A stretch of 64,000 nt of DNA from Snodgrassella alvi (lineage in GTDB: Bacteria; Pseudomonadota; Gammaproteobacteria; Burkholderiales; Neisseriaceae), in assembly GCF_002777745.1 (NCBI RefSeq), contig NZ_MEIO01000055.1:62001-126000 (forward strand), in the 5' to 3' direction. The notes beneath the pieces were generated by a model. It worked only from the letters and a program-made list of their open reading frames with translations. It made no database searches and was not told where the DNA came from. The position numbers and the translations under genes are program-made. Of this stretch, positions 11,982-15,051 are shown one piece after another. Numbering within the stretch: the stretch's first letter is position 1; each line of letters opens with the position of its first letter.

Positions 11982-12917
11982 TTAACTTTTTTTCAATGAT
12001 TTCACAACTTCATCAATCTGCCGGTTCAGGCTTTCCAGTCCATTACCAGACAGATACCATAAGTCGGCACTGAGATAGACTATTTTTGTACCGGCACGCT
12101 TCAATACTTTGTCATCAAAATAATCATTGCGTATCGGCGTATTTCCGATGGCTTTGCTGCGGTCAACAACATAAACAATATCTGGATGGTATTGGTTGAT
12201 AAACTGGCTATCCACCATTACAGGGGCAGGCCTGCCATTATCACCGATAACAGGTGTGGGCAGTGCATCCGCGGCCACAGCACGTTTAATTTTCAGTTCA
12301 TCGAAAATCAGTGCCGGATAGGTGCCCTGATTCATCAGCATGACATGGCCGTCATTATGCAACACCACGATGGCTTTCTGGCCTGAATGTTGTGCCAGCT
12401 CGCGGGCCGCACTCATTTTCAGATCTAATGCTTTCACTTGCTGTTGCACCTGCGCTTCCTTGCCGGCAATTTTACCCAGCAGACGGATTTGCTTTTTCAC
12501 ATCCTCATAATAATGCCCATCTGCGGCATTAACTGAATAATTCAGGGTAGGAGCAATGGTACTTAAATCTTTATAGAAAGCATTCTGGCGTCCGCTCATA
12601 ATAATCAGGTCTGGTTTGAGTGCCTGAATAGCGGCTATATCCGGCTCTTTCATCTGGCCTGCATTCTGTACCTGATCATTATGATATTGTTGCAGGTACG
12701 CAGGAATATTGCTTACAGGTGCCGCTTTCACCCGATTGCCGACACCCAGTGCGTCCAGCGTATCTAGTGCACCAAAATCCATCACCACAATTTTTTGTGG
12801 TGCCGCTGGCATCTTAATTTCTTCACCGGCCTGAGTAACATGCACCGGTGCACTTTGACAGGCACTCAATCCCAGAGCCAGCGCTGATAAAACAGCCATT
12901 GTTAAGATTTTTTTCAT
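11982..12917 (-). CDS. Iron-siderophore ABC transporter substrate-binding lipoprotein (FatB/CeuE-like)
   Basis: Periplasmic, lipid-anchored receptor for a ferric siderophore. Residues 1-20 are a lipoprotein signal with lipobox LSAC and Cys20. The rest is the class III periplasmic binding fold (TroA/FecB group): KIVVMDFGALDTLDALGVGNRVKAAP, then LKPDLIIMSGRQ and late PDIVYVVDRSKAIG. The 311-residue length fits the catecholate/petrobactin-type receptors. No permease or ATPase genes lie beside it, so it works with components encoded elsewhere. An AT-rich palindrome containing a Fur-box-like core lies just upstream, consistent with iron repression. Confidence 0.9.
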   Translation of the reverse strand: MKKILTMAVLSALALGLSACQSAPVHVTQAGEEIKMPAAPQKIVVMDFGALDTLDALGVGNRVKAAPVSNIPAYLQQYHNDQVQNAGQMKEPDIAAIQALKPDLIIMSGRQNAFYKDLSTIAPTLNYSVNAADGHYYEDVKKQIRLLGKIAGKEAQVQQQVKALDLKMSAARELAQHSGQKAIVVLHNDGHVMLMNQGTYPALIFDELKIKRAVAADALPTPVIGDNGRPAPVMVDSQFINQYHPDIVYVVDRSKAIGNTPIRNDYFDDKVLKRAGTKIVYLSADLWYLSGNGLESLNRQIDEVVKSLKKS

Positions 12918-12923
12918 AACAAA

Positions 12924-12977
12924 TTACCTTTTTATATTAAATAATGATAATTATTATTATTTAATATAAAAAGGTAA
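12924..12977 (-). promoter_or_regulatory. 54-bp palindrome with Fur-box-like centre upstream of the siderophore receptor
   Basis: A 22-bp perfect inverted repeat (12924-12945 with 12956-12977) flanks a 10-base centre. The middle reads AATAATGATAATTATTATT, very close to repeats of the Fur hexamer GATAAT/ATTATC. On the minus strand a possible -10 (AATAAT, 12961-12956) with TAGACT 17 bases upstream overlaps the palindrome. The arm near the gene contains AAAGGTAA, the ribosome binding site of the lipoprotein. Confidence 0.75.
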
Positions 12978-13059
12978 AAGTCTAGCCTGCTAATTGCTAT
13001 TAATGGATATAACAAAAGATTTTAAGCAGACACTGCACGCAGCCGAATACTGTGATGCT

Positions 13060-13377
13060 TTAGTGAGCACCAAATTTCAGGCCAATAATACCAATGATAA
13101 TCAGTCCCAGACTAATCAAGCGCATGGCACCGGCCGGCTCTCTGAACACGATAATGCCCACAATTGTTGCACCCACCGCGCCAATCCCAGTCCATACCGC
13201 ATAGGCTGTTCCTACTGGCAAGGAGCGCATCGACTGTGCCAGTAACAGAAAGCTGCCTATTAAAGCTGCCAAAGTAATAATGCTGGGAATAAATTTAGTG
13301 AAATTCTGTGAATATTTAAGACCAATGGCCCAAACTACTTCCAGTAATCCGGCCAGAAATAATGACAGCCAAGCCAT
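13060..13377 (-). CDS. gdx: SMR-family guanidinium exporter (Gdx/SugE type)
   Basis: A 105-residue, four-helix small multidrug resistance protein. Glu13 ([14 protein letters not shown]), the conserved proton/substrate site, is present. [18 protein letters not shown] in helix 3 and IVFREPA match the SugE/Gdx subtype rather than EmrE. Members of this subtype export guanidinium in exchange for protons. The upstream leader holds a two-hairpin guanidine-II riboswitch (13399-13447), which strongly supports that substrate. An AGGA lies 6 bases before the ATG. Confidence 0.95.
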
Positions 13378-13398
13378 AATTGTTCCTGTACAGGCTAA

Positions 13399-13447
13399 TG
13401 CAGGCCGTCCTGCATAAGAATTTACCGGCTAGGCCGTCCCAGACCGG
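13399..13447 (-). promoter_or_regulatory. Guanidine-II (mini-ykkC) riboswitch
   Basis: On the minus strand two hairpins each carry an ACGG loop. The first (13447-13425) pairs CUGGG/CCUAG around ACGG, with an outer CCGG/CCGG stem and one bulged U. The second (13414-13399) is UGCAGG-ACGG-CCUGCA, a perfect 6-bp stem. A 10-base linker separates them. Paired hairpins with ACGR loops define the class, which senses guanidine. The CAGG of the downstream ribosome binding site can pair with CCUG of the second hairpin, suggesting translational control. Confidence 0.93.
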
Positions 13448-13469
13448 ATGCATAAGCATGTGAAACCAC

Positions 13470-13499
13470 ATCATAGTAGGCAGACAAAGCCAGCGTCAA
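13470..13499 (-). promoter_or_regulatory. Sigma-70 promoter for the riboswitch-gdx transcript
   Basis: On the minus strand TTGACG (13499-13494), an 18-base spacer, and TATGAT (13475-13470). Both hexamers differ from consensus by one base. Transcription would start about 15 bases before the first riboswitch hairpin. Confidence 0.75.
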
Positions 13500-13526
13500 G
13501 CATGGAAATACCATGGCTATACAGAA

Positions 13527-13550
13527 ACAGATGGCAACACTGCCATCTGT
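13527..13550 (-). terminator. Probable terminator of queA-gloA
   Basis: Perfect 10-bp stem ACAGATGGCA/TGCCATCTGT with an ACAC loop, 57 bases past the gloA stop. On the minus strand it is followed by TTTCTGT, a short T tract. Confidence 0.65.
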
Positions 13551-13606
13551 CGGAATATCAGCATTTATGGCAACGTTTTAGCCTAAAACACAGCCGGCGC
13601 AATTAA

Positions 13607-13999
13607 TTATGCAGATTTCTTTTTCTGAATGAATTCAATTTTATAACCATCCGGATCTTCCACAAACGCGATTACTGTTGTGCCATGCTGCATAGGTCCG
13701 GCCTCTCGTGTTACTCGGCAGCCCTTAGCCCGCACAGCATCACAGGCAGCATAAGCATCATCAACTTCAATGGCAATATGGCCGTAGCCGGTACCCAATT
13801 CATAGGCATGAGTATCCCAGTTATAGGTTAATTCCAGCACAGTGCTATCAGATTCTTCACCATAGCCGACAAAGGCCAAAGTAAAACGGCCACCGGGAAA
13901 ATCTTCGCGCCGCAACAGTTTCATACCCAGTACATCCTGATAAAACGCCAGTGATTTATCCAGATCGCCTACGCGTAGCATAGTATGTAACATTCTCAT
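13607..13999 (-). CDS. gloA: Lactoylglutathione lyase (glyoxalase I)
   Basis: Converts the hemithioacetal of methylglyoxal and glutathione to S-lactoylglutathione in the cytosol. The 130-residue protein shows both glyoxalase half-motifs and all four metal ligands: His5, Glu56, His74 and Glu122. The short, Ni-type bacterial form lacks the long N-terminal extension of Zn enzymes. It starts 11 bases after queA and is probably co-transcribed with it. Confidence 0.96.
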
Positions 14000-14010
14000 G
14001 GTCTGTTCCT

Positions 14011-15051
14011 TTATTTTGTTTTTACTTGCGCCAGATTACCTAGCAGCATGGCATCGCCATAACTAAAAAAACGGTATTGTGCTGCAATGGCATGCTGGTA
14101 AATGGCACGGATTTCATCATAACCACTAAAGGCGCTCACCAGCATCAATAAAGTTGATTTAGGCAAGTGAAAATTGGTAATCATGCGATCGATGACCTTA
14201 AACTGGTATCCGGGTGTAATAAATATATTAGTATCCCCTTGTCCAGCCTGCAATTTTCCACTGCGTGCCGCTGATTCCAGTGCACGTACTGCTGTGGTAC
14301 CCACCGCCCAAACTTTATTACCGCGTGCATGAGCAGCTTCAATTTCTGCGACTACCACTTCACTTACGTCATACCATTCACTGTGCATGTGGTGTTCGGC
14401 AATATTCTCTACCCGTACTGGCTGAAAAGTACCAGCACCCACATGCAGGGTTACCTCAGCCAGATGCACGCCTTTAGTTTGCAACTGTTGCAAAATGGTA
14501 TCAGTAAAATGCAAACCGGCAGTAGGTGCAGCCACCGCACCTTCATGTTTGGCATACACCGTCTGATAACGTTCATCATCGTCATCATCAGCCGAACGGG
14601 TAATGTATGGCGGCAAAGGCAGATGGCCGTGAATAGCCAGCAATTCCCAGACCGTCTGGCTACCAGCAAAATGCAGCACAAACAGTTCACCCTGACGAGC
14701 TTGCATCTGTGCATGCAAGCCACCTTCAAAAATCAGTTCTGTGCCCGGTTTGGGGGATTTGGATGAACGCACATGCGCCAGAGCAGTATGTGCATCCAGC
14801 ACGCGCTCAATCAACGCTTCAATCTGACCACCACTGGCCTTGTGACCGAACAGGCGTGCTTTCATTACACGGGTATTGTTAAACACCAGCACGTCACCTG
14901 CTTCAACATAGTCGGCCAACTGTGCAAATTTGCTATCTACCAACTGTTGCCCGGGCAAAGATACCAGCAAACGACTACTACCACGTTCTGCCGGCGGATG
15001 CTGTGCAATCAGTTCTGGCGGCAAATCAAAATCAAAATCATTAATATGCAT
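14011..15051 (-). CDS. queA: S-adenosylmethionine:tRNA ribosyltransferase-isomerase
   Basis: Builds epoxyqueuosine in the tRNA wobble position by transferring the ribosyl part of SAM to preQ1-tRNA. The start at 15051 ([19 protein letters not shown]) matches family N-termini and gives 346 residues; an upstream in-frame start would add 17 unrelated residues. Motifs seen are [11 protein letters not shown], the [16 protein letters not shown] block, [10 protein letters not shown] and [10 protein letters not shown], ending with [19 protein letters not shown] run of five Asp (residues about 157-161) is encoded by GAT/GAC repeats. Co-directional with gloA. Confidence 0.96.

Follow-up and report, generated by a model that had tools for sequence, protein, structure and literature searches.

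Guanidine-II riboswitches are described as translational ON switches, in which guanidinium brings about a loop-loop kissing contact and the Shine-Dalgarno sequence is freed; in the model for E. coli, the anti-Shine-Dalgarno sequence sits in the linker (PMC9300104, PMC9094411, PMC5486947, PMC12186494). The linker is given a range of 7 to 40 nt in PMC7544219. The best comparison for the RNA described here is the guanidine-II element of E. coli gdx/sugE, and for the protein Gdx-Clo (PDB 6WK9), a guanidinium/proton antiporter of the SMR family, for which residues E13, W16, S42, Y59 and W62 are named in a review of these exporters (PMC9574504).

The window, i.e. the whole 64-kb stretch of Snodgrassella alvi DNA analysed in this study, harbors a gdx (sugE) gene on the minus strand, the leader of which is very probably a guanidine-II (mini-ykkC) riboswitch that frees the start region upon guanidinium binding. 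Two ACGR hairpins, a short linker and a position just 5' of the gdx Shine-Dalgarno sequence are common to this leader and the E. coli element, and the linker of 9 nt falls inside the published range. The differences lie in the loops (ACGA/ACGG in E. coli, ACGG/ACGG in the window), in the bulged P1 stem and in the score against the Rfam model RF01068, which is 27.6 bits compared to 33.6–50.7 bits for leaders of the E. coli type in the same scan. For the window element, the computed support consists of anatomy, conservation, covariation, gene linkage and Gdx-type residues; that it binds the ligand, that binding turns expression on and which alternative pairing forms are inferred. The element is known in kind and ordinary; the copy in the window is a new member and carries an uncommon loop pair. 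No report of the gdx-leader element was found in the papers searched on Snodgrassella with guanidine or riboswitch.

The gdx leader and its gene product

The leader comprises a promoter, the hairpins P1 and P2 and a Shine-Dalgarno sequence (Table 1). The P1 stem, as read directly on the minus strand, contains one bulged base and one G-U pair, and P2 ends 20 nt upstream of the gdx start codon. Two ACGG hairpins 10 bases apart had been proposed in a sequence-only reading of this DNA; both hairpins and both ACGG loops are there, but the linker has 9 nt instead of 10. Two ACGR-loop hairpins whose stems measure 4 bp or more and close with a G-C pair, and which are separated by 7 to 45 nt, occur a single time in the 64-kb window, both strands included. 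When the 134-nt leader was shuffled 20000 times with its dinucleotides preserved, no such pair arose. The pattern GGACGRCC-N18..40-GGACGRCC has a single match in the 2.6-Mb genome, which is the gdx leader. As a whole, the 98-nt leader does not fold with unusual stability: its z score is −1.52, and 18 of 200 shuffles fold as well or better. The promoter, called a good sigma-70 promoter in the earlier reading, is sigma-70-like with 10 of 12 consensus bases: it is the best among seven such sites in 12900–14100 (shuffles: mean 3.4, sd 1.6), and in the eight gdx leaders of the genus TTGAC is invariant and the −10 hexamer is TATGAT, TATAAT or TACGAT. The ACGG loop of P2 is kept in all eight leaders as well.

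Table 1. Positions of the leader elements and of gdx in the window
Feature	Position	Strand	Basis and remarks
Sigma-70-like promoter, TTGACG-18-TATGAT	13470..13499	−	Consensus scan, 10/12; hexamers kept in 8/8 genus leaders
Promoter hexamers	TTGACG 13499-13494; TATGAT 13475-13470	−	Spacer of 18 nt
Hairpin P1, CCGGTCTGGG-ACGG-CCTAGCCGG	13425..13447	−	Read; loop 13437-13434; Rfam RF01068; model R1, 24 bits
Linker, 9 nt, with candidate anti-Shine-Dalgarno UUCUU (13420-13416)	13416..13424	−	Predicted pairing with 13387-13383
Hairpin P2, ATGCAGG-ACGG-CCTGCAT	13398..13415	−	Read; loop 13408-13405; 7-bp stem
Shine-Dalgarno sequence, CAGGAA	13383..13388	−	Read; ATG 5 nt downstream; CAGG invariant in 8/8 genus leaders
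gdx (sugE), Gdx-type SMR exporter, 105 aa	13060..13377	−	NCBIfam SugE equivalog; Pfam PF00893

Three further stretches were observed around the leader. The sequence TTCACATGCTTAT (13453-13465), located in the interval between promoter and P1, is near-invariant in the eight genus leaders with one T/C change and may be relevant to the transcript start or to an alternative fold. A perfect inverted repeat, ACAGATGGCA-GTGT-TGCCATCTGT, at 13527-13550 between the gloA end and the gdx promoter may serve as terminator of gloA, although it is not followed by a run of T. The A+T-rich sequence AATAATGATAATTATTATTATT lies in 12918-12975, before the gene of an iron-type binding protein (11982-12917), and resembles a Fur box.

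The gene product scored 144 bits against the NCBIfam SugE equivalog model (cut-off 126), also matched Pfam PF00893, and remained under the cut-offs of the other 20 SMR models listed, EmrE and Qac among them. The nearest solved chains are 6wk5/6wk9 with 121 bits, compared to 48 bits for EmrE. All five residues named for Gdx-Clo (in Gdx-Clo numbering) are present at the same positions, with no notable difference between the two proteins in this sequence comparison; guanidinium transport by the window protein is predicted. These residues are supportive but non-exclusive, since S42 and the glutamate and tyrosine are common to other SMR subtypes.

Covariance models and stem covariation

Rfam RF01068 aligned end to end with the leader over 13400-13445. 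Its gathering score of 32 bits is a database threshold and not a structural feature; an Rfam scan of the window at this score yielded no entry, and a genome search with the guanidine-II model at E ≤0.001 yielded no match. When E values up to 10 were admitted, the gdx leader was the sole match in the genome (E 0.0016). Neither this search (Infernal with stricter filters) nor the exact pattern revealed a second guanidine-II copy in the genome. Seven of the eight genus elements are under the Rfam cut-off, and one passes. A covariance-model score under the threshold had been named in the earlier reading as refuting the riboswitch, and 27.6 bits is indeed such a score; it is outweighed by the other evidence. 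A guanidine-II riboswitch before an SMR gene of the Gdx/SugE type is well supported, the decisive lines of evidence being independent of the cut-off: the genome-wide E value, the co-occurrence with gdx, a separately built model (R1) and the covariation in the stems.

For comparison outside the family, 80 named gdx relatives were used, the best of at least 585 confirmed ones. An ACGR hairpin pair was located within 150 nt upstream in 49 of these 80; the other 31 failed the strict hairpin rule, among them L061, which has an interrupted P1 stem, and L074, which is accepted by Rfam. Of the 256 tetraloops, each demanded in turn for both hairpins, ACGA was found at 14 loci, ACGG at 2 and no other at all. 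The Rfam model was applied to 20 of the 80 loci, 16 of which passed the cut-off just before gdx (L061, L077, L089 and L098 failed). Model R1 was built from 24 gdx leaders, none from the family of the window (26 of the 49 hand-picked, L081 and L062 omitted). In these leaders, 92.6% of the cells are paired, and the covariation is 0.578 compared to 0.192 in shuffles (reached in 0 of 500). In the 64-kb window, R1 found the gdx leader (24 bits, E 0.00056) and, with E values up to 10 admitted, nothing else. It detected 16 of 16 family loci with the element and none of 12 loci without it, and on whole genomes it returned the eight genus elements at E 0.001–0.13 and four weaker matches elsewhere (E 1.9–9.1). 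Alignment A6 of the 16 family matches, which is fitted to the structure of R1, showed a covariation of 0.521 compared to 0.251 in shuffles (0 of 500); further pair types, one of five measures, were not above shuffles in A6 (402 of 500 reached the count). In alignment A3 of 12 leaders, P1 was poorly aligned except at the loops, and this alignment was set aside. The guanidine-II stems are preserved by compensatory changes before gdx, also far beyond the family.

Distribution in Snodgrassella and its family

A close gdx (86–100% identity) is encoded in 8 of 14 Snodgrassella genomes including that of the window, and a guanidine-II match (E ≤0.05) was found in exactly these eight, each 22 nt before gdx. 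The protein of S. alvi SCGC AB-598-O02 (L061) is 86% identical to that of the window. Neither a close gdx nor a guanidine-II element was found in the remaining six genomes of the genus, one of which (G012) encodes an SMR protein of 44% identity without the element. In two others, G008 (L158) and G013 (L162), part of the gdx start survives in the corresponding interval that separates gloA from the binding-protein gene. This remnant has approximately 70% identity over 115–132 bases and is not accompanied by the hairpin pair; gdx and switch seem to have been lost together. Across the family, matches at E ≤0.05 are found in 16 of 83 genomes, which belong to 3 of 12 genera: eight in Snodgrassella, four in genus g5 (before gdx) and four in genus g6. 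In the guanidine-II search with E up to 10, weak matches appeared in 43 of 61 genomes; 11 of 14 control genomes had them too, and they are treated as noise.

Predicted folding and the proposed switch

The ligand-free minimum of the window leader is predicted at −35.8 kcal/mol, compared to −32.5 kcal/mol with both hairpins formed. In the former, UUCUU of the linker pairs with AGGAA (13387-13383), and the loop and 3' arm of P1 form a helix with the start codon and codons 2–5. Four of the five linker-Shine-Dalgarno pairs are possible in all eight genus leaders, with one-sided changes only, and the fifth in one of eight. Five of seven congeners are predicted to have the two-hairpin fold as their minimum even without ligand. 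Enforcing the hairpins raised the accessibility of the Shine-Dalgarno sequence in three of the eight genus leaders and lowered it in none; among 50 other leaders it was raised in 28 and lowered in 9. The input for these accessibility values and for a partner-swap test consisted of the eight genus leaders plus 79 of the 80 named loci, of which 8 and 50, respectively, were kept; loci with no pair under a relaxed rule or with P2 >60 nt from the start were excluded. A general complementarity of P1 and P2 to the start and Shine-Dalgarno regions across gdx leaders was rejected on the basis of the swap (P2 with Shine-Dalgarno: −10.7 kcal/mol for own versus −9.1 kcal/mol for swapped partners; the other three pairings within 0.7 kcal/mol). 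Since own pairings are little better than swapped ones, no general complementarity rule is claimed.

Because the folding evidence varies among leaders, we only infer the regulatory platform and the OFF pairing. In the proposed mechanism, UUCUU of the linker would pair with AGGAA of the Shine-Dalgarno sequence when guanidinium is missing, the 5' arm of P2 would pair with a CCUGU further downstream, and the loop and 3' arm of P1 with the start codon and the first codons. Guanidinium at both loops would stabilise P1, P2 and the kissing contact and free the start region, upon which Gdx would be translated and guanidinium exported.

Loop letters and alternative explanations

For constructs of the E. 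coli riboswitch, KD values of 264 µM (ACGG/ACGG), 133 µM (ACGA/ACGG) and 59 µM (ACGA/ACGA) are reported, and G in both loops is rare in nature according to the authors (PMC9300104). The ACGG/ACGG pair is found in one of eight leaders in the genus, that of the window, and in 2 of 49 named leaders (L078 and L132). The difference within the genus lies in the final base of the P1 loop, which is G in the window and A in the seven other leaders. When the A of the congeners was put into this loop in silico, the helix between P1 and the codons was lost and the unpaired fraction of AGGAA rose from 0.18 to 0.66, as calculated with folding energy parameters that omit the kissing contact. Judging from the published E. 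coli data, the GG loops should lower the affinity about two-fold, and the predicted folds suggest that they favour a more closed state without ligand. That the G retunes the switch doubly, by weaker ligand binding and by a 7-bp helix of the P1 loop and 3' arm with gdx codons 3–5, is a tentative and rather unlikely reading. The G is also a possible sequencing error.

The sequence-only reading had placed the OFF state of a genuine guanidine-II riboswitch in a pairing between the 3' arm of P2, through its CCUG, and the CAGG at the ribosome site. Both stretches are present and each is invariant in the eight genus leaders, and a possible stem-loop spanning P2 and the ribosome site is described in Gloeobacter (PMC5486947). 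The invariance, however, carries no covariation signal, and CCUG is already required by the P2 stem. Forcing the pairing costs 5.5 kcal/mol compared to the two hairpins in the window (4.5 to 12.0 kcal/mol in the eight genus leaders) and 8.8 kcal/mol compared to the minimum of the window, and its ensemble probability is 0.00, so that this part of the reading is disfavoured and an OFF state of this kind appears improbable. In the folding predictions, the better fit is a pairing of linker and Shine-Dalgarno sequence like the one proposed for E. coli. Still less probable is a riboswitch drifting out of use in this strain, whose weakened sensing would show in the score below the cut-off and in the presence of a second ACGG loop. 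The ACGG/ACGG construct has the highest KD of the four E. coli combinations (264 µM, PMC9300104), the R1 score of the window element (24) is among the lowest of the eight genus elements (19.6–29.7), and gdx and element decayed together in G008 and G013. On the other hand, gdx is intact in the window with the five named residues, both stems form, promoter and Shine-Dalgarno sequence are conserved, and the GG construct of E. coli retains binding (PMC9300104).

Control via transcription termination instead of translation, as used by other guanidine riboswitch classes (PMC12186494), is very unlikely here: a scan of 12900–14100 gave no terminator-like site, and the element stops 20 nt before the start codon. 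The hairpins might also have arisen by chance or as a repeat artefact, for example from DNA uptake sequences. The DNA uptake sequence of Neisseriaceae is AGGCCGTCTGAA; its first eight bases, AGGCCGTC, are what each hairpin shows on the plus strand, and the genome belongs to the Neisseria family by its kinship to Snodgrassella. The uptake-sequence or repeat artefact was rejected as extremely unlikely. The full 12-mer AGGCCGTCTGAA is absent genome-wide (0 copies), which contradicts this form of uptake sequence; AGGCCGTC has three copies in the window, within which other uptake-sequence dialects were counted. In gdx leaders far outside the family, moreover, the same loops and stems persist and show compensatory changes.

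A similar hairpin pair before ChaA-like genes

The most surprising observation met in this study is an element in another genus of the family, g6. In all four of its genomes that were analysed (L011/G027, L012/G036, L014/G033 and L016/G018), a guanidine-II-like hairpin pair near 1500–1545 with ACGA in both loops ends approximately 20 nt upstream of the probable start codon, an ATG, of a gene for a ChaA-like cation/proton antiporter. The elements scored 23.2–27.5 bits, below the Rfam cut-off, and 18.6–23.1 with R1, and show one compensatory change in P1. A close gdx was not found in g6, where the SMR proteins are 28–36% identical or lacking (G033). The antiporter matched the NCBIfam ChaA model with an E value of 1e-50, yet under its cut-off. 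Among 15 ChaA-like homologues in 274 genomes of the class, 14 were without ACGR hairpins within 300 nt 5' of the matched part, the sole exception being that of G018. In L011 and L012, part of the hairpins could be coding, since the frame is open through them. The papers searched gave no report of a guanidine-II-like element before a ChaA-like gene.

Implications for Snodgrassella

The link of this organism to guanidine stress drawn in the earlier reading is weaker than the identification of the element, with 6 of 14 genus genomes lacking both parts and a decayed gdx locus in two. As regards detection, the Rfam cut-off misses seven of the eight members seen in the genus. The natural GG variant beside ACGA/ACGG sisters provides a ready comparison for one-base tuning of the loops. 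If the retuning by the P1 loop were true, an aptamer loop would at the same time be the repressing strand, in a form of the guanidine-II platform that masks the start region. With a very probable guanidine-II riboswitch before gdx, a bee-gut symbiont joins the bacteria with a guanidine-sensing exporter.
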